The position numbers and the translations under genes were made by a program. Under the pieces are notes generated by a model, which was not told the origin of the DNA, searched no databases, and was given only the letters and a program-made list of their open reading frames with translations. A stretch of DNA of 64,000 bases from Nitrospira sp. CR1.1 (GTDB taxonomy: Bacteria > Nitrospirota > Nitrospiria > Nitrospirales > Nitrospiraceae). The stretch is taken from assembly GCA_014055465.1 (NCBI GenBank), contig WIAF01000011.1, forward strand, positions 1 to 64,000. Direction: 5' to 3'. This document shows positions 10,428 to 40,624 of the stretch, piece by piece (position 1 is the first letter of the stretch; each line of letters opens with the position of its first letter).

Positions 10428-11204
10428 CTACAGCTCAAGCACCTTCTGATACGCTCTGAGCATATCGCCAACGGACAACACCCCGATGATCGTGCCGTCT
10501 TCCGTCACCGGCAGGTGTCGGATGCCCTCTTTCTTCATCAATCTAAGCGCTTCCATCAACGGCTCATTGTCCTCAATGGTGACCACGGATTTGCTCATGC
10601 ACGTGAGGACGGTGGTTGCGTTCGGATCGAGTCCCTTGGCGACCGCTTTCCGGCTGAGATCCGTATCCGTGATGATGCCGATATACCGCGATCCGTCGTC
10701 GACCAGCAGAGAACCGATCCGCCACTTCTGCAACAGACGGCCGGCCTCCTTGATCGACGAACTCTTGTGCACACTCCGGACTTCGGCCGACATGAACTCA
10801 GCCACCGTGTGACCATCGATCCGCTCACCGAGGGTCCGCCGCCAATCCCGACCTGCTCTGGTAGCCTTTCTCAACTCCAGCTGGGCCAGACAACTTTCCA
10901 ACACCTGCTTCCGTTGATGAAGGCTTTCGCGTTCCACGTTGTGCGTGCCGGCCTCCTGCGCTTCCTCCGGCAGGATCGCGGCCTCACCCAGCTTGGCATA
11001 CTGATAGGCTTCGAGTTCCTCGGACGATCCGCCGAAGGTTTCACTCAGCACTTCCTCGGTCTGCTCATCGAATCCGTCCAACGACGCGGTAGCCTTCCGT
11101 CGCGATAAGAACGGCTGGATCGCCACCAACGTCGCTTGAATCCGCTCTATGTGCCGGCTGAGAAGGTCCGCCGGTTCCTGACTCGACTTCACTCTCTTGG
11201 CCAT
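10428..11204 (-). CDS. CBS-domain-pair protein with helical N-terminal region
   Basis: A 258-residue protein. The first 125 residues are predicted helical (many Glu/Gln/Leu, including a TraR/DksA-like spacing without zinc cysteines). Two CBS modules follow: V-A-E-F-M-S-A-E-V-R-S-V-H then G-I-I-T-D-T-D-L-S-R-K-A-V-A, and C-M-S-K-S-V-V-T-I-E then R-H-L-P-V-T-E-D-G-T-I-I-G-V-L-S-V-G-D. CBS pairs bind adenosyl nucleotides and usually regulate a partner. AAGGAGG lies six bases upstream of the ATG. It follows nirA by 103 bp and could be the last gene of that operon. No target is recognised. Confidence 0.8.
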   Translation of the reverse strand: MAKRVKSSQEPADLLSRHIERIQATLVAIQPFLSRRKATASLDGFDEQTEEVLSETFGGSSEELEAYQYAKLGEAAILPEEAQEAGTHNVERESLHQRKQVLESCLAQLELRKATRAGRDWRRTLGERIDGHTVAEFMSAEVRSVHKSSSIKEAGRLLQKWRIGSLLVDDGSRYIGIITDTDLSRKAVAKGLDPNATTVLTCMSKSVVTIEDNEPLMEALRLMKKEGIRHLPVTEDGTIIGVLSVGDMLRAYQKVLEL

Positions 11205-11307: not shown

Positions 11308-12903
11308 CTAAGCAGGAATCGGTTGGGGCGTGAGCCCCGTCGTCTCGTTGCCGGATGCCGTCGCCTTCGAGCCCCCCGCGCCTTTTGGCGCGGCCTTCCC
11401 GCGCACACGATGCATTTTTTCTCGCGTGTGATAGGGCATGACCATTTCCAACACTGCTGGAAGCCGGTCACAGGGCACATCCTCCATGATTTTGATGGCG
11501 AGCTTGGGATCGGGGCCCGAGCGCCCGCTCACAAACACATCCACGGCATCGACGACCTTTCCGCCCACCTTCGCCTTCTTGCCCAAAAGCCCGATATCCG
11601 CCACGAGATGGTTTCCGCACCCGGCCGGACAACCGGACCAGTGCAGCGTGATCGGCTTGAGGGTATCGCCCAGCTTCCGCTCCAGCACTCGCGCCGTTTC
11701 AACGGCCCGGCTTTTGGTTTCAATGACAGCCAGATTGCAGTAGTCGCTTCCCACACAACTGACCAGTCCCTTGTAGAGCGCGGATGGGTTGTAGGCGAAT
11801 TGCTTCACCAGCGGCTCTTCCGCCAATTCTCCCACCAATCGATCGCTGATATGAGGGATCACAAAGGCCTGCGCCGGCGAGAGACGGACCTCTCCGTTCC
11901 CGTACCGAAGCGCCAGCGCGGCGATGTTCCGGAGATCAGCCGCCTTCACCCGCCCGACCAACACCTTCAGCCCTACATAGTTCATCCCCCGTTGTTTTTG
12001 ACGGAAGATGCCGATATGGTCGCGCTCCGCCGCGCCCCTCGCATCCACCCCTGCCGTGGGCAGGGTTCTCCCGACCAGCCGTTCGACTTCGTGCCGCAAC
12101 CGGGCTTCGCCCCAGGCCTCCACGAGAAAGGCGAGGCGCGCTTGGGTGCGATTCTCACGCGGTCCATGATCGCGGTAGAGATGCAGCAGCGTCCGGCAGA
12201 CCTCGAAGGCCTCCGCCGGATTCACGAACATATCCAGCGAACTTGCAATCCGATACCCGCCGGATCCCAGTTTCCCCCCGACGAACACATTGTACCCGTA
12301 ACACTTGTCATGCCCCAGGTCGTGATAGGCCGGGACCAGCGCGATGTCTTGCGTCTCCGTGTGGAGGCAATTATCCGGACAACCGGTGACCGCAATATTG
12401 CACTTGCGCGGCAGATTCGTATAGGCAGGATTACCCAGCACTTCACGATTGATCGCGCGCACAATGTCCGTTGCATCAAGCAACTCGCTGGGATTCAAGC
12501 CGGCCACGGGACACGTCATGATGTTCCGTACCGTGTCCATACCGGTTTGCATAGACGTGAGTCCGACCTCTTCCAGCTTGGCAAATACCACCGGCACATG
12601 GGCGATCGTCAGATGGCGCAGTTGCACTTGTTGACGCGTGGTGACATCGATGACGCCATTGCCGTAAGCGAGGGCGATGTCCGCCAGCGCTTGGAGTTGA
12701 ACCGACGTGGTTTGGCCGCCCGGCATCCGCACCCGCAACATGAAAAAACCCGGCGTGGGATTCCGCAAATACAGCCCGTACCATTTCAGGCGTTGAATAT
12801 CGTCTTCCGGAATAGCCTCCCATCCGGCTTCCGCATAGTATGCGATCATGTCGCGCACCGTTAACCCATCCCGCTCGGACTTGATCGCCTCAATCTTGTT
12901 CAT
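11308..12903 (-). CDS. nirA: Ferredoxin-dependent assimilatory nitrite reductase
   Basis: A 531-residue sirohaem / [4Fe-4S] enzyme that reduces nitrite to ammonium with six electrons from ferredoxin. Two nitrite/sulfite-reductase half-domains are each followed by a sirohaem-binding region. The cluster cysteines are in C-V-G-S-D-Y-C-N-L-A and S-G-C-P-A-G-C-G-N-H (C-x5-C and C-x3-C) near residues 390-440. The earlier T-G-C-P-D-N-C repeat belongs to the first half. There is no extra FAD/NADH module, so it is NirA-type, not NirB. Its start overlaps the stop of the preceding small gene (ATGA at 12903-12900), implying coupled translation. With nirC and cynS it forms a nitrite/cyanate assimilation operon downstream of the ANTAR leader. 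Confidence 0.9.
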   Translation of the reverse strand: MNKIEAIKSERDGLTVRDMIAYYAEAGWEAIPEDDIQRLKWYGLYLRNPTPGFFMLRVRMPGGQTTSVQLQALADIALAYGNGVIDVTTRQQVQLRHLTIAHVPVVFAKLEEVGLTSMQTGMDTVRNIMTCPVAGLNPSELLDATDIVRAINREVLGNPAYTNLPRKCNIAVTGCPDNCLHTETQDIALVPAYHDLGHDKCYGYNVFVGGKLGSGGYRIASSLDMFVNPAEAFEVCRTLLHLYRDHGPRENRTQARLAFLVEAWGEARLRHEVERLVGRTLPTAGVDARGAAERDHIGIFRQKQRGMNYVGLKVLVGRVKAADLRNIAALALRYGNGEVRLSPAQAFVIPHISDRLVGELAEEPLVKQFAYNPSALYKGLVSCVGSDYCNLAVIETKSRAVETARVLERKLGDTLKPITLHWSGCPAGCGNHLVADIGLLGKKAKVGGKVVDAVDVFVSGRSGPDPKLAIKIMEDVPCDRLPAVLEMVMPYHTREKMHRVRGKAAPKGAGGSKATASGNETTGLTPQPIPA

Positions 12904-13149: not shown

Positions 13150-13590
13150 TTAGAACGTTTTGTATTCGAGCCACTTGCCGTTCAGAGTGATCTTGCAGCG
13201 GGCTTCCCCCTGACTGCCGGTGACCTTTTCCATATCCAGCGTAAAATCGATGGCGCTCATGATCCCGTCGCCGAACATTTCATTGGCCATCTCCCGCAGT
13301 GAATCACCATAGACACCGATCACCTCCATCAGGCGATATTTAAACGGATCCGTCAGATTCGGAAAATCTGCGCGTATCGGAAACGCGCTCAAGGCAGCCA
13401 CTTGTTCGGTATTCAAACCCAACAAGACTCCGACCTTCGCCGCCTCCGCAGGCGCCAGCCGGTGATTGCCGTTTAAGGCAGCCGCCACAAACGTCGGATT
13501 CTTCCCGACCTTTTTGGCCACCTGGGCAATCGTTACCTTCTTCTTCAACCGCTGCGCCTTGATCGCCTTCCGCATCGCGTCCTTCTCCAT
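13150..13590 (-). CDS. cynS: Cyanase (cyanate hydratase)
   Basis: A 146-residue enzyme that converts cyanate and bicarbonate to ammonia and CO2. The N-terminal helix-turn-helix-like bundle (K-K-V-T-I-A-Q-V-A-K-K-V-G-K-N-P-T-F) is followed by the catalytic C-terminal region: Y-R-L-M-E-V-I-G-V-Y-G supplies the conserved Arg and Glu, and G-I-M-S-A-I-D-F the conserved Ser of the decamer active site. AGGAGG precedes the ATG at 13590; the frame stays open upstream but adds no family sequence. It lies between nirC and the small winged-helix gene. The FNT channel beside it may also serve cyanate (inference). Confidence 0.95.
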   Translation of the reverse strand: MEKDAMRKAIKAQRLKKKVTIAQVAKKVGKNPTFVAAALNGNHRLAPAEAAKVGVLLGLNTEQVAALSAFPIRADFPNLTDPFKYRLMEVIGVYGDSLREMANEMFGDGIMSAIDFTLDMEKVTGSQGEARCKITLNGKWLEYKTF

Positions 13591-13643: not shown

Positions 13644-14474
13644 TTACGACCCGACCACCGCCGATGTGGCCGGCCGGGGGACCGATGCCACCGGAGCTTC
13701 GGCCACGCGGTAGGGACTCACCATCCAATAGAGCCCCCCGACAAATAACCCGCCGCCCACGAGGTTCCCCAGCACAACAAACAATTGGTTGTACCAAAAC
13801 GCCCCCCAAGTCACCGCTGCGTCATGCGGCAGAAACAGCGCCATGCCTAACAGCGATTGATTGGCGATGCTATGCTCGAACCCGGTACCGATGAAGGCAA
13901 ACAGGCACCAGAAAATCAGGAGAATCTTCGCCGTATCGTTGTTCGTCCGCCCTGTCATCCAAACCGCCAGACAGATCAGCCAATTGCAGAGAATGCCCCG
14001 CACGAACAGCTCCCAGGCAGGTAGCGACATTTTGACTGAGGCCACTTTCTCGATGAGTTCCGTCGTCGGCCCTTTGGCAAAGACGCCAGATTGGACGATA
14101 AGCCACGCCAACCCCAACGAACCCGCCAGATTGCCGAGCCAGGACCAGGCATTGAGCTGAATGACTTGCGTCCAGGTGAGACTTTTTGTCAGACCTCCGA
14201 TCGTGCCGATGAGGTTGTTGCCAGTGAACAGCTCAGACCCGGCAAAAATCACCAGCGTCAACGCGATACCGAAGGACACGCCCATGACGAGTTTCACCAC
14301 CGGAGAGCCAGCCGCCGCCAACGGCCCTCCGAGACTGAAGATCAACGCAATTCCAAACCCGAGATAGATCCCGGCTAGAGCCGACAGGATAAAATACCCG
14401 CCCGGCGCTTGTTCTAAAAACGCCCACTTCTTGGCTGCCACCCCCGCGATTCGCTCGTGATCCGCTATATGCAT
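13644..14474 (-). CDS. nirC: Formate/nitrite-family channel, probable nitrite transporter
   Basis: A 276-residue FNT-family membrane protein with six transmembrane helices. The family glycine-rich segments G-I-Y-L-G-F-G-I-A-L near residue 36 and G-S-E-L-F-T-G-N-N near residue 105 form the channel constrictions, and N-W-L-I-C-L-A-V-W starts the second half. FNT proteins pass nitrite, formate or related small anions across the inner membrane. The neighbours nirA and cynS point to nitrite (perhaps cyanate) import for assimilation. AAGGAGAG lies six bases before the ATG. Its transcript begins with two ANTAR/terminator units between 14514 and 14716. Confidence 0.88.
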   Translation of the reverse strand: MHIADHERIAGVAAKKWAFLEQAPGGYFILSALAGIYLGFGIALIFSLGGPLAAAGSPVVKLVMGVSFGIALTLVIFAGSELFTGNNLIGTIGGLTKSLTWTQVIQLNAWSWLGNLAGSLGLAWLIVQSGVFAKGPTTELIEKVASVKMSLPAWELFVRGILCNWLICLAVWMTGRTNNDTAKILLIFWCLFAFIGTGFEHSIANQSLLGMALFLPHDAAVTWGAFWYNQLFVVLGNLVGGGLFVGGLYWMVSPYRVAEAPVASVPRPATSAVVGS

Positions 14475-14513: not shown

Positions 14514-14552
14514 AAAAAAAACGTCCTCATCCCGTACTCGGGAAGAGGACGT
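14514..14552 (-). terminator. Intrinsic terminator T2 in the nirC leader
   Basis: On the minus strand the hairpin arms ACGTCCTC and GAGGACGT (inner CCCG/CGGG) are followed by eight T (14521-14514). It lies 40 bases before nirC, so it must be bypassed for nirC expression. The 5' arm shares bases 14546-14552 with the P2' stem-loop. Confidence 0.85.
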
Positions 14553-14617
14553 CGTTGTCCTGCTCGGCGAGGTTGAGACGACCTCGCCCGGTGCTCTGTG
14601 CCGACTTCAGCGTCAGC
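14514..14617 (-). promoter_or_regulatory. ANTAR-type antiterminator leader, second unit before nirC
   Basis: P1' (14617-14600) is GCTGAC-[GCTGAA]-GTCGGC, a six-base loop with G at position 4 but G instead of A at position 1. P2' (14561-14546) is AGGAC-[AACGAC]-GTCCT with the canonical A1 and G4. A 7-base-loop hairpin (14588-14566) lies between them. P2' and terminator T2 are mutually exclusive. P1' looks degenerate. Confidence 0.65.
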
Positions 14618-14624
14618 AGGAATT

Positions 14625-14664
14625 AAAAAAGGCGTCCGCCACTCTTGAAAGAATGACGGACGCC
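14625..14664 (-). terminator. Intrinsic terminator T1 in the nirC leader
   Basis: On the minus strand GGCGTCCG (14664-14657) pairs with CGGACGCC (14638-14631), followed by six T (14630-14625). The 5' arm overlaps the 3' half of the P2 stem-loop. It may also stop readthrough from glnA. Confidence 0.85.
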
Positions 14665-14716
14665 TTTGTCCGTATACCGTATGTGGTGCAGGTTCGATGT
14701 CGGGCGTCGTTGCCCA
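14625..14716 (-). promoter_or_regulatory. ANTAR-type antiterminator leader, first unit before nirC
   Basis: P1 (14715-14702) is GGGC-[AACGAC]-GCCC. P2 (14673-14656) is ACGGAC-[AAAGGC]-GTCCGT. Both loops are six bases with A1 and G4 and a closing C-G pair, the signature of RNA bound by ANTAR-domain proteins such as NasR and AmiR. The linker is 27 bases. Forming P2 uses bases needed for T1, so a bound ANTAR dimer would prevent termination. Confidence 0.85.
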
Positions 14717-14735
14717 CTCTCACCCGCGCAGTGCA

Positions 14736-14764
14736 TGTATACCACCACCTCCAGGATTCGTCAA
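14736..14764 (-). promoter_or_regulatory. Sigma-70-type promoter of the nirC operon
   Basis: On the minus strand, -35 TTGACG (14764-14759), 17-base spacer, -10 TATACA (14741-14736). The start of transcription would be near 14729, about 13 bases before P1, so the leader begins with the ANTAR motif. Confidence 0.8.
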
Positions 14765-14789: not shown

Positions 14790-16199
14790 CTACACGTCGT
14801 AATACAGGAAAAATTCGTACGGATGCGGCCGCAACCGCATCGTATCAACTTCCTTGGTCCGCTTATATCCGATCCACGACTCGATGAGATCCTCGCTGAA
14901 CACCCCGCCCTTGAGGAGGAACTGATGGTCCTTCTCCAGGTGGTTGAGCGCCTCGTCCAGGCTGCCCGGCATGGTACGGATCTTGGCGGCTTCCTTGGCT
15001 TCGAGATCGTACAGGTCCTTTTCTGCCGGCTCTCCAGGATTGATCTTGTTCTCGATCCCGTCGAGGCCGGCCATCAACATCGCGGAAAACGCCAGATAAG
15101 GATTGGCCGCCGGATCCGGGAAGCGCACTTCGATCCGCTTCGCCTTCGGGCTCGGGGAGTACATGGGGATGCGGATACCGGCCGACCGGTTCCGGCTCGA
15201 ATAGGCCAACAAGACCGGCGCTTCAAAACCCGGCGTCAACCGCTTATAGGAGTTGGTTGACGGATTGGTGAAGGCGGCCAGCGCGGGCGCATGCTTCAAA
15301 ATTCCACCGATGTAGTGCAGACACATCTGAGAGACCCCGGCATACTCCTTCCCGGCAAACAGCGGCTTGCCGTCCTTCCAGATGCTCTGGTGGGTGTGCA
15401 TGCCCGATCCGTTGTCGCCGAAAATCGGCTTCGGCATGAAAGTCACCGTCTTCCCGTGCCGACGCGCGACGTTCTTAACGATGTACTTAAACATCATCAT
15501 TTTGTCCGCCGTCCGTAACAGGCTGTCGAAGCGAATGTCGATTTCCGCCTGGCCAGCCGTCGCCACTTCGTGGTGATGCTTCTCCGTTGCAATGCCGGCC
15601 TTTTCCATTTCCAAGATCATTTCCGTGCGGATGTCCTGCTGCGTATCCGTCGGCGGGACAGGAAAATAGCCTTCCTTGTGGCGGATCTTGCCGCCCAGGT
15701 TGACGCCGTCCTGGCCCATGTTCCAGACGCCCTCGTCGGAATCGATGTAGTAGTAGGCGCTGTGATTCGTCTGGTCGTAGCGGGCATGGTCGAAAATGAA
15801 GAACTCGGCTTCCGGCCCCCAGTAGGAGGTGTCGCCGATCTTGGTGCTCTGGAGATACTTTTCCGCCTTCTGGGCGATGAACCGCGGATCGCGGTCATAC
15901 ATTTCACGCGTGATCGGATCGACTACATTCCCGATCAGGCTCAATGTGGGCACGGAGCAAAAGGGATCCATGCAGGCGGTTGTCGGGTCCGGCACGAGCA
16001 GCATGTCGCTGTTGTTGATCGCTCTCCAACCACGAATCGACGAACCATCGAGCCCGGAGCCATCCTTGAACAGGCCCTCGGTCAGCTCACTGACAGGAAT
16101 CGTAAAATGCTGCCAGGTGCCGATCAGGTCCACGAACTTCATGTCCACGACCTGGACCTTATTCTTCTTTGCAAAATCTAACACCTCACGAACGTTCAT
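14790..16199 (-). CDS. glnA: Glutamine synthetase type I
   Basis: A 469-residue dodecameric GSI enzyme that makes glutamine from glutamate, ammonium and ATP. Metal and substrate residues are in [23 protein letters not shown] and [10 protein letters not shown]. The adenylylation loop K-D-L-Y-D-L near residue 395 keeps the Tyr that GlnE modifies, consistent with GlnE-like genes at 57-4218. GGAGGAGGGG stands just before the ATG. It follows glnD by 49 bp, so amtB-glnB-glnD-glnA look like one operon. The nirC promoter starts just after its stop. Confidence 0.97.
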
Positions 16200-23682: not shown

Positions 23683-23726
23683 AAAAAAAAAGTCCTCGGA
23701 CCCACCGGACCGGTGGACCAGAGGAC
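23683..23726 (-). terminator. Intrinsic terminator in the nadE leader
   Basis: On the minus strand GTCCTC pairs with GAGGAC around an inner GG-CCACCGG / CCGGTGG-CC stem (23726-23692), followed by nine T (23691-23683). The 5' arm is shared with the P2 stem-loop. Confidence 0.85.
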
Positions 23727-23782
23727 GTCGTTGTCCTGCGCCATCTCTATAAGGGATAGCCTCCTGAGACTCCGTTGTCCCT
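23683..23782 (-). promoter_or_regulatory. ANTAR-type antiterminator leader before nadE
   Basis: P1 (23782-23767) is GGGAC-[AACGGA]-GTCTC with one G-U pair. P2 (23737-23722) is AGGAC-[AACGAC]-GTCCT. Both loops show A1 and G4 with a C-G closing pair. The linker is 29 bases. P2 excludes the terminator hairpin. Confidence 0.83.
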
Positions 23783-27598: not shown

Positions 27599-29326
27599 TC
27601 AGAAAAGGAAGTAGCGCTGCGCCATCGGCAACACCTCAACCGGATCGCATCTCAACAAAATGCCGTCCGCGCGCACTTCGTACGTTTCCGAATCCACTTC
27701 GATCTGCGGCAGCGCGTCATTCAACTTGAGATCACGCTTCCCGATGCTCCGACAGCCTTTCACAGCAGCCACGCGCTTCTGCAATCCCAGCTGTTTCGGC
27801 ACGTCGCGCTCCAGCGCTGTTTGCGAAAGAAAGGTCAGACTTGTGCGAAAAGGCGCCCGCCCGTAACTGCCGAACATCGGCCGCGTCAACACCGGCTGCG
27901 GCGTCGGGATGGAAGCATTGGGGTCGCCCATGGCTGCCGACATCGGAAAGCCACCCTTGATCACGATCTCGGGCTTGACCCCGAAGAAGGCCGGTTTCCA
28001 CAGAACCAGATCGGCCAGTTTACCGACTTCCACCGAGCCCACCTCGTGCGCCACCCCATGCGCAATGGCAGGATTGATCGTGTACTTCGCCACGTACCGT
28101 CTGGCGCGCCAGTTATCATGTTGGCCGTCCTGCGGCTCGACGCCACGCTCCGACAAATGCCCCCGCTGCACCTTCATTTTATGGGCGGTCTGCCAGGTCC
28201 GGATGATGACTTCCCCCACACGCCCCATGGCCTGCGAATCGGACGACATGATGCTGATCGCGCCCATATCGTGCAGGATATCCTCGGCCGCAATCGTCTC
28301 GCGGCGGATACGCGACTCGGCGAAGGCGATGTCTTCCGGCACGCGCGGGTTCAGGTGGTGGCAGACCATGAGCATGTCGAGATGCTCATCCATCGTATTG
28401 ACCGTGAACGGCATGGTGGGATTCGTCGACGACGGCAACACGTTCGGCTCACCGCACACCTTGATGATGTCCGGCGCATGTCCGCCGCCGGCGCCTTCCG
28501 TATGGAATGAATGGATCGTCCGGCCCTTGAAGGCCTTGATCGTGTCTTCCACAAACCCCGCTTCATTGATCGTATCCGTATGGATCGCCACCTGAATGTC
28601 ATACCGTTCCGCAACACTCAGGCAGGTATCGATGGCGGCTGGAGTCGTCCCCCAGTCCTCGTGCAGCTTCAGTCCAATCGCCCCCGCTTCGACCTGTTCG
28701 TTCAAGCCGTCCGGCAATGACGAATTCCCTTTGCCCAGGAACCCCAGATTGATCGGGAACCCATCCGCCGCCTCCAGCATGCGATGAATGTTCCATGGAC
28801 CAGGGGTGCAGGTCGTCGCATTCGTCCCGGTGGCCGGGCCAGTCCCGCCGCCGATCAGCGTCGTCAGTCCGTTCGCCAGCGCTTCGGTGATGATTTGCGG
28901 GCAGATAAAATGGATATGCGTATCGATCCCGCCGGCGGTGATGATCTTTCCCTCAGCCGACAACACCTCCGTGCAAGGCCCGATCTCCATGCCTTTCGTG
29001 ACGCCGTCCATGAGGTCGGAATTCCCGGCCTTGCCGATGCCGACAATGCGGCCGTCCCTGATCCCGATGTCCGCCTTCACTACACCCCACCAGTCGATGA
29101 TGACGGCATTCGTGATGACGAGGTCCAAGCCTCCTTTCGCACGCGTAGCCGCCGGCGATTGCCCCATGCCATCTCGAATGACCTTGCCGCCGCCGAATTT
29201 GGCCTCTTCACCAGGAACGGTCAGATCGCGAGTAATCTCGACCAGCAGGTCCGTATCGGCCAAGCGGATCCGATCCCCAGTCGTGGGGCCGTAGAGGTCG
29301 TGGTATTGGCGTCTAGGAATCTTCAT
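27599..29326 (-). CDS. ureC: Urease subunit alpha
   Basis: A 575-residue catalytic subunit with the dinuclear nickel centre that splits urea to ammonia and carbamate. The carbamylated Lys is in G-L-K-L-H-E-D-W-G near residue 218. Nickel histidines are in T-H-I-H-F, the H-T-D-T and [10 protein letters not shown] region. The flap has M-V-C-H-H-L-N-P with the conserved Cys-His. The family start M-K-I-P-R-R-Q-Y is at 29326; the open frame beyond it lies inside a palindromic element. The ribosome-binding site is weak (TTAAG). Confidence 0.97.
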
Positions 29327-38111: not shown

Positions 38112-38174
38112 CCTGGTCGCCCTCCTGGTTCGGATCGATGTGACTGTCACCGGACCGGACGGGCTTGCAGGCAC

Positions 38175-38216
38175 AAAAAAACGCCCCTCCGGTCCAACCG
38201 TTGGACCAAAAGGACG
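38175..38216 (-). terminator. Intrinsic terminator in the fmdC-urt leader
   Basis: On the minus strand a 16-bp hairpin with G-U pairs (38216-38182, loop CGG) ends in seven T (38181-38175). It lies about 64 bases before the porin ATG. The 5' arm contains GTCCT of the P2 stem-loop. Confidence 0.87.
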
Positions 38217-38270
38217 TCATTGTCCTCTGCCTCTGTGGCGTCTGCGAAAATTCAGGACGTCGTTGTCCTG
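38175..38270 (-). promoter_or_regulatory. ANTAR-type antiterminator leader before fmdC-urt-ure
   Basis: P1 (38270-38253) is CAGGAC-[AACGAC]-GTCCTG. P2 (38226-38211) is AGGAC-[AATGAC]-GTCCT. Both loops have A1, G4 and a C-G closing pair; the linker is 26 bases. P2 and the terminator exclude each other. The gene for an ANTAR protein lies 1.1 kb away. Confidence 0.88.
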
Positions 38271-39364: not shown

Positions 39365-40624
39365 TCACCCTCGGTTCTTATCTGCCCGGTCTTCAATTTC
39401 ACCCGCCAGCAAAATCGCTTCGGCAATCTCCCGCATGGACTTGCGGAGATCCATGCTCTGTCGCTGAATCAGCTTGAACGCCTCCTCTTCAGAGAGACGT
39501 TTGGACCGCATGAGGTACCCCTTGGCCCGATCGAGCAACTTACGGACTTGCAACGCTTCCTGCATCTCAAACGACTTCTCCAACAGCGTCGTGTGCTCGA
39601 TGGAGATCGCCGCTTGATTGGCAATGGCCTGCATGAGCTTCACATCCTCCGACGTAAACGTATGGGGCTTGGACGTATACGTATTGATGACCCCGATCGC
39701 TTTTTCCCGCACCAGCATGGGCACACAGAGGAGCGAACAGAGTCCTTCCTTCGCGGCCATGTCCGGGTACACGTAGGAGCCTTCTTTGGTGACATCCGGG
39801 ACGATGATCGGCCGGCGATCCTGAACCGCACGCCCGCTGATACTTTGGCCGATCTTCACGTTGGGCTTGCGCCGGTACTGCTCGCTCAAACTTTGCGTGG
39901 CGGCGATGCGTAATTCACCGGTCGGCTGATCCAAAAGGATAATGGAACAGATTTTCGACCCCATCATTTGCGCCGTCATCGTCACAATCAGCTGCAACAC
40001 ATCTTCCATCAAGCGATTCGACGAGACCGTTTCCGACACCTGAGACAAGGTGTCGAGTTGCAGCGCCTTGCGGGTCATCTGGTCGTAGAGCCGGGCGTTT
40101 TCGATGGCTCCGCCGACCTGCGTGGCAATGGTCGACAGTAGCGCCAGCTCATCAGGGCGGTATCGCCGCGACCGCTTATGTTGCACATTGATGACGCCGA
40201 CAACCTCCTGTTTGGTCGTGATGGGCACGGAGACAAACGCCTGGTACCGGTCTTCCGGGAGGTTGTGAAAAAACTTAAACCGCGAATCATCGCTTGCGCT
40301 GTTGGGAATCACCACGCGAGTCCTCTCCCGCGCAACCCAGCCGGTGATCCCCTCTCCCAATCCAATCGTGATGCGCCCGATGAGCTTTGGATGAGGATTT
40401 TTCGAGGCCCGAAGAATCAGCTCGTCCCGGTTATCGGACAGCAGATATAACAAACAGGCATCGGCCTTCGTCGCCTCAACCACCACATCGACGATGTGCC
40501 GAAGGACTGACTCCAAATCGAGGGTGCTGCTGATCGATTCGCTGATGCGGTGCAAGACATCGACTTCGCGTGTTTTTTCACGCAACGCCTGTTCTAATTG
40601 CGGCACGGTTCGCTTCGATGCCAT
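39365..40624 (-). CDS. GAF-GAF-ANTAR transcription antiterminator
   Basis: A 419-residue protein. A short coiled coil (residues 8-25) precedes two GAF sensor domains (about 25-175, ending R-Y-R-P-D-E-L-A-L-L; about 200-340, ending F-T-S-E-D-V-K-L-M). The C-terminal ANTAR domain (about 355-410) has R-K-L-L-D-R-A-K-G-Y-L-M, then L-S-E-E-E-A-F-K-L-I-Q-R and S-M-R-E-I-A-E-A-I-L. ANTAR proteins bind paired hexaloop stem-loops in nascent RNA and block terminators; NasR and AmiR are known examples. The ligand is not predictable from the GAF sequence. TAGGAG precedes ATG 40624. It starts seven bases after aroB ends. The leaders before nirC, nadE, the amtB-linked porin and fmdC are its likely targets. 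Confidence 0.9.
   Translation of the reverse strand: MASKRTVPQLEQALREKTREVDVLHRISESISSTLDLESVLRHIVDVVVEATKADACLLYLLSDNRDELILRASKNPHPKLIGRITIGLGEGITGWVARERTRVVIPNSASDDSRFKFFHNLPEDRYQAFVSVPITTKQEVVGVINVQHKRSRRYRPDELALLSTIATQVGGAIENARLYDQMTRKALQLDTLSQVSETVSSNRLMEDVLQLIVTMTAQMMGSKICSIILLDQPTGELRIAATQSLSEQYRRKPNVKIGQSISGRAVQDRRPIIVPDVTKEGSYVYPDMAAKEGLCSLLCVPMLVREKAIGVINTYTSKPHTFTSEDVKLMQAIANQAAISIEHTTLLEKSFEMQEALQVRKLLDRAKGYLMRSKRLSEEEAFKLIQRQSMDLRKSMREIAEAILLAGEIEDRADKNRG

Follow-up and report, generated by a model that had tools for sequence, protein, structure and literature searches.

Antiterminators that respond to ANTAR proteins have been described as two hexaloop hairpins, each with A at loop position 1 and G at loop position 4 (A1/G4), the second of which lies over a terminator (PMC3369931). 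In the eut elements of E. faecalis, the linkers between the two hairpins are 5-12 nt long, and induction dropped drastically when one of them was altered to 3 or 14 nt; the same paper calls the linker of ANTAR elements variable (PMC3369931). Adding 20 nt to the linker abolished the action of EutV in vitro (PMC8934654). Action of NasR on nasF required A1 of the first hairpin, P1 (PMC3369936), and mutating A1 weakens the targets of both EutV and NasR (PMC3369931, PMC3369936), whereas in the crystal structure of EutV, G4 is specifically contacted and A1 is not (PMC8934654). It was already predicted in 2012 that ANTAR proteins control nitrogen genes and that one transcription unit can carry several elements (PMC3369931), and a paper on antitermination in the Pseudomonas nirBD operon is cited in PMC8092218.

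We found that the leader of nirC in Nitrospira sp. CR1.1 contains two hairpin-terminator units, one after the other. The leader lies between glnA (14790-16199) and nirC (13644-14474) in the window, the 64,000-nt stretch of DNA that we analyzed. Read on the minus strand from 14764 to 14514, it consists of P1-P2-T1 followed by P1'-H-P2'-T2. A preliminary description of the sequence had proposed this order of P hairpins and terminators, and every part was found on that strand. Support for the RNA architecture is strong. The folding z score of the leader is -7.3, and 0/100 shuffled sequences were equally stable. In a search for units, we required a hairpin with an AxxGxx hexaloop and an intrinsic terminator that it overlaps. 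Dinucleotide shuffling of the leader (2000 sequences) yielded one or more units of P2 plus overlapping terminator in 5 cases and two units in none. The count in the 64-kb window is exactly four, every one on the minus strand, and the nirC leader accounts for two. A stricter search for P1-P2-T, run on 10 copies of the window generated by a Markov model, gave no matches.

The leader begins with a predicted promoter (14736-14764, minus), with a -35 box TTGACG (14764-14759), a 17-nt spacer, and a -10 box TATACA (14741-14736). The promoter had been claimed from the sequence, and the claim is borne out by related leaders: 23/23 related nirC leaders have TTGACG at -35 and TATAnn at -10. An automatic sigma-70 scan did not return this promoter because the scan demands T at the last position of the -10 box. 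An inverted repeat, CGTC(A/G)AG-4 nt-CTTGACG (window 14776-14759, minus), overlaps the -35 box and is kept in many relatives. No T-run follows the repeat, so it could be either an operator or the 3' hairpin of glnA.

Unit 1, which the preliminary description had called canonical, has the features of an ANTAR dual hexaloop: A1/G4 in both loops, overlap of P2 with the terminator together with mutual exclusion of the two, and covariation in the stems. P1 (14701-14716, minus) is GGGC-AACGAC-GCCC (14715-14702) with an additional T-G pair at 14716/14701. P2 (14656-14673, minus) is ACGGAC-AAAGGC-GTCCGT. It overlaps T1 (14625-14667, minus), an intrinsic terminator with an 18-bp stem (hairpin 14667-14628) and a tail of six T (14630-14625) that is broken up in several relatives. 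When prefixes of the leader were folded, P2 was present at 95 nt and T1 stood in its place at 105 nt; in this folding model, P2 and T1 are mutually exclusive. Covariation of the P1 and P2 stems across the leaders of three operons was 0.437, compared to 0.226 in shuffles (0/500 shuffles reached this value). R1, a covariance model built from canonical units, found unit 1 at E 5.7e-15, but unit 1 is itself among the seeds of R1 and E-values of our own models are rough. The P1-P2 linker is 27 nt in unit 1, and 24 and 28 nt in the two other canonical units of the genome. These lengths are at or just over the upper end of those reported (5-12 nt for eut; 2-25 nt in actinobacteria).

Unit 2 has the same overlap of second hairpin and intrinsic terminator but differs in its first loop. 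P1' (14600-14617, minus) is GCTGAC-GCTGAA-GTCGGC, with G at loop positions 1 and 4 (G1/G4). P2' (14546-14561, minus) is AGGAC-AACGAC-GTCCT, with an A1/G4 loop, and overlaps T2 (14514-14552, minus; hairpin 14552-14521), which has a tail of eight T (14521-14514). An extra hairpin, H (14566-14588, minus), lies in the P1'-P2' linker and has compensatory changes at 5 of its 8 pairs across 22 leaders. The G at the first position of the P1' loop, the extra hairpin, and the lengths of both T-runs had all been noted beforehand, and we see each of them. Because of G1 in P1', we file unit 2 as a variant. Prefix folding gave the same alternation as in unit 1, with P2' present at 205 nt and T2 in its place at 215 nt, and in the model P2' and T2 are mutually exclusive.

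The variant unit appears to be maintained. The P1' stem is paired in 99.2% of cells and T2 in 99.7%. The stem of P2' is nearly invariant across leaders, while H and the linkers vary. Across 22 nirC leaders, 6 of the 19 pairs in unit 2 changed on both sides, and 0/500 shuffles reached the covariation score. P1' could be recognised in 37 leaders. Its loop begins with G in 33 of them and with A in the other 4, and 36 have G at position 4, whereas every P1 loop detected in a first unit has A at position 1; these counts were made by hand and include related genomes, so they do not represent independent events. Judging from this pattern, G1 in P1' is probably a conserved variant and not decay. It need not abolish binding, since G4 and not A1 is specifically contacted in the EutV structure. 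By analogy with the A1 mutations that weaken EutV and NasR targets, ANTAR binding at unit 2 would probably be weaker than with A1. The P1'-P2' linker is ~38 nt, or ~16 nt without H, and H may keep P1' and P2' within reach of one dimer. T2 may be the main stop, because its tail is long in all 23 relatives (8-10 T among the first 11 nt) and the tail of T1 is interrupted in several.

The preliminary description had staked its proposal on close relatives keeping the second unit. Two units are present in 27/27 testable Nitrospira genomes and in five other genera, although relatedness inflates this and our other conservation counts. (G007 and G024, incomplete assemblies with no glnA match, were left out of the 27.) The same tandem with the same promoter is found at 23 of the 24 close nirC loci of the genus. 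In the exception (G016), the tandem is farther upstream, at the head of the operon after glnA. Two genomes without a close nirC (G012 and G004) keep it at the operon head, before cynS, and in G002 the second unit is rearranged. The cultured Candidatus Nitrospira defluvii also carries the tandem in its genome (L199). In other genera, matches to R2, a model of second units, fall ~100 nt downstream of R1 matches. Inspection of loci confirmed tandems in genera g4, g7, g8, g9, and g20, mostly with nirC or cynS next; one g4 genome (G100) has P2'-T2 and no clear P1'. The tandem is not obligatory, because at least one nirC leader in the Nitrospiraceae (L213) has a single unit between glnA and nirC. 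Lineages with the gene order cynS-nirC (L214-L219, L230) have one unit between these genes. These single-unit leaders are natural comparators for the tandem.

Other genomes have a second tandem locus (L132 17042-17200; L130 around 5630; L185 2414-2280; L178; L179). The P1 loop of its second unit is again G1 (G025, G020, G203), and some loops in the P2 position are also G1 (G028, G016). In L132, this locus precedes a lipoprotein-like ORF. In G025 (L132 9212-12361), an ANTAR-type element at 12361 (minus) is followed by a porin-like ORF and by two amtB-like ammonium transporters in a row.

The likely target of the leader is nirC-cynS-nirA, as had been suggested. All are on the minus strand. nirC belongs to the formate/nitrite transporter family (Pfam PF01226, E 2.4e-66; NCBIfam NirC-like below cut-off), cynS (13150-13590; Pfam) encodes cyanate lyase, and nirA (11308-12903; Pfam, with NCBIfam below cut-off) is of the ferredoxin-nitrite-reductase type. 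A CBS-domain protein (10428-11204; Pfam) is possibly encoded by the last gene of the operon. Two single ANTAR-type units are found elsewhere in the window, also on the minus strand. One (38172-38270; P1 AACGAC, P2 AATGAC, terminator) precedes a 477-aa ORF and urt genes. The other (23684-23781; P1 AACGGA, P2 AACGAC, terminator) precedes nadE-DUF6733-amtB-glnB-glnD-glnA. The genome thus has four elements in three nitrogen-gene leaders, all within ~24 kb, and only that of nirC is a tandem. Genome-wide, R1 reported nirC unit 1, these two units, and one weak match; the first three were seeds of the model, so the new information is that nothing else scores. The weak match (C2:224828, on another contig, E 0.014) was dropped as it lacks an overlapping terminator. 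A genome-wide search with the pattern GGACAANGNCGTCC, allowing one mismatch, was uninformative because a reversed control was commoner, and we used covariance models instead.

No terminator was detected in the interval from glnA to the nirC leader. Judging by this arrangement, both T1 and T2 would be expected to gate read-through from the amtB-glnB-glnD-glnA side in addition to transcripts from the local promoter. A search for NtrC, limited to the NtrC family, returned many proteins resembling sigma-54 activators, none over the NtrC cut-off. An Rfam match to 5_ureB_sRNA (RF02514; window 28885-29176, plus strand, 93.5 bits) lies antisense to the urease gene ureC and may reflect merely the conserved urease coding sequence.

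The genome encodes a single ANTAR protein, the presumed RNA-binding regulator. It has the domain order GAF-GAF-ANTAR and its gene (39365-40624, minus) adjoins aroB and pilQ. The ANTAR domain scored 68.6 bits against Pfam PF03861 (cut-off 27.3). Exactly one ANTAR protein is present in 29/29 Nitrospira genomes, and one in each of the 12 genomes tested from other genera of the family. We aligned the domain to EutV (PDB 6wsh, taking the numbering of the paper as chain position minus 2). Of 11 RNA-contact positions in EutV, 6 are identical (R142, K143, K149, E160, M172, R175), 3 are similar (K147R, Y164F, N173D), and 2 are changed (R168Q, R177S). All eleven positions are invariant across the 29 genomes. 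Binding by EutV was abolished when M172 was lost and fell ~60-fold with E160A. Family and structure-sequence searches showed that the N-terminal GAF domain resembles those of NifA and PtsP-type proteins, and this likeness suggests, by analogy, nitrogen status as the signal. With one such protein in the cell, both units of the nirC leader are apparently read by it.

We suggest that the nirC leader comprises two ANTAR-responsive transcription attenuators in series that would form an AND gate on nirC-cynS-nirA, and we put the probability of this reading at roughly 0.72. It builds on the observed anatomy, the alternation of P2 and terminator in folding, conservation, covariation, and the one candidate protein per genome; from these we infer that the ANTAR protein binds, where transcription terminates, the nature of the signal, and AND-type control. 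By default, RNA polymerase would halt at T1, and polymerases that escape would halt at T2. When activated, most likely by nitrogen status, a GAF-GAF-ANTAR dimer would bind the P1 and P2 hexaloops, hold P2, and so block T1. Past T1, binding would be repeated on P1' and P2' to block T2, with H shortening the effective distance between the two. The G1 loop of P1' probably weakens the second site, so that more active protein would be needed there. Expression of nirC-cynS-nirA, whether from its own promoter or by read-through from glnA, would then need two successive antitermination events. Two serial events would be expected to lower leak, given by (1-t1)(1-t2) where t1 and t2 are the termination efficiencies, and to steepen the response. 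The tandem may thus provide lower leak or two thresholds, in line with the tighter or two-level control proposed in the preliminary description.

All elements found in the genome precede nitrogen genes, which supports the series reading. Four points count against it. The linkers exceed the lengths that work in eut, being 24-28 nt in canonical units and ~38 nt in unit 2. NasR action needs A1 of P1, so G1 in P1' could mean weak binding or none. At two contact positions, the Nitrospira domain has Q in place of R168 and S in place of R177. Finally, the nirC leader of L213 has just one unit.

The G1 loop and the unequal tails also bear on whether both units respond to the protein. If only one unit, for example unit 1, were ANTAR-responsive, the other terminator could be constitutive or partial and insulate nirC from glnA read-through. 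Insulation would be useful given the lack of a detected terminator upstream of the leader, P1' breaks the A1 rule, R1 (built on canonical units) leaves unit 2 of this genome undetected, and it is the tail of T2 that is always long and that of T1 that is interrupted in several relatives. However, a plain terminator needs neither an A1/G4 hexaloop lying over it in nearly all leaders, on a stem that stays near-invariant while H and the linkers vary, nor an upstream hexaloop hairpin that keeps G4 in 36/37 leaders. We consider this explanation unlikely. The sharp difference in first-loop letters (G1 in 33/37 P1' loops, A1 in all first-unit loops detected), seen again in the second units of the other tandem locus, is what would be expected if unit 2 belonged to a distinct recognition class with another geometry or another factor, the two units then answering different signals. 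That is quite improbable with one ANTAR protein per genome; moreover, four P1' loops have A1, so the letters interchange, and A1 has no specific protein contact in the structure of EutV (PMC8934654).

Nor does the second unit look like a duplication without regulatory consequence. Single-unit leaders such as L213 exist, as this idea would predict, but six genera keep the same order of units and P1' is unlike P1, whereas a neutral copy of recent origin should look like unit 1; we give the idea very little credence. A conserved, structured leader with terminators could also be a ligand riboswitch or a leader-peptide attenuator, acting without protein-dependent antitermination. No Rfam riboswitch or leader family scored over cut-off in the nirC leader, linker indels among relatives are not multiples of three, and there are no conserved codons. 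In addition, the hexaloops agree with the consensus for ANTAR elements, and the genome that contains them has an ANTAR gene. Of all the explanations weighed, we find this one the hardest to credit.

Serial attenuation by the ANTAR protein can be taken a step further. We raise, tentatively and with more doubt than confidence, that units in the second position form an ANTAR class of their own, marked by a conserved G1/G4 P1' loop, a spacer hairpin and a different affinity, so that the tandem is a two-threshold AND switch. If so, one ANTAR protein could set separate activation points for nirC-cynS-nirA and for the single-unit urea and ammonium operons. More generally, the nirC leader and its sister leaders suggest that a single conserved GAF-GAF-ANTAR protein uses antitermination to run a regulon for nitrogen assimilation, and the nirC tandem offers a natural test of why terminators stand in series. 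The conserved G1 loops bear on the role of the first loop base, which mutagenesis indicates is needed and the crystal structure indicates is not specifically contacted. Among the papers that could be searched, we found no description of antitermination in the control of nitrogen assimilation in Nitrospira. No ANTAR systems of Nitrospira appear in the literature searched, although the supplementary tables of Ramesh 2012 (1902 genomes) may list some. A literature search on tandem antiterminators found nothing, and a conserved tandem in one leader and the G1 class are absent from those parts of the ANTAR literature that we examined.

The system closest in mechanism is EutV and the E. faecalis eut elements (Ramesh 2012, PMC3369931; PMC8934654), which share with the nirC leader the pairs of A1/G4 hexaloops, the overlap of P2 and terminator, an ANTAR protein, and most RNA-contact residues. 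The differences are the linkers (24-28 nt here, 5-12 nt in eut), the two full units per leader, and G1 in P1'. The regulators differ in that the Nitrospira protein carries GAF sensor domains and EutV a receiver domain. Desulfotomaculum acetoxidans, with 13 elements predicted across six transcription units, and Pelobacter also have several elements per unit at nitrogen genes, but these are predictions only, and the accessible text does not describe a tandem in one leader, a G1 class, or a linker hairpin (PMC3369931).

The target pathway is shared with the leaders under NasR or NasT control, those of nasF in Klebsiella (NasR), nirBD in Pseudomonas (P11), and nirA in Bradyrhizobium. In the accessible parts of the literature examined, no tandem is described in the NasR or NasT leaders of nitrate/nitrite assimilation. 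The upstream half of the nirC leader aligned to Rfam P11 over the full span with large internal gaps (E 0.0016, 23.4 bits versus a cut-off of 70), the aligned parts including P2 (GGAC-AAAGGC-GUCC) and the terminator. The nirC leader is therefore similar to P11 in P2 and terminator and is not a member of that family. We take P11 to be the NasT-dependent leader of Pseudomonas nirBD. The known nitrate/nitrite systems sense nitrate through NasR or NasS-NasT, in contrast to the GAF-GAF protein of Nitrospira. In their proposed logic, the two units resemble tandem T-box leaders and tandem riboswitches, in which serial conditional terminators act as an AND gate. There the effector is a tRNA or a metabolite, whereas the effector proposed for the nirC leader is a protein.
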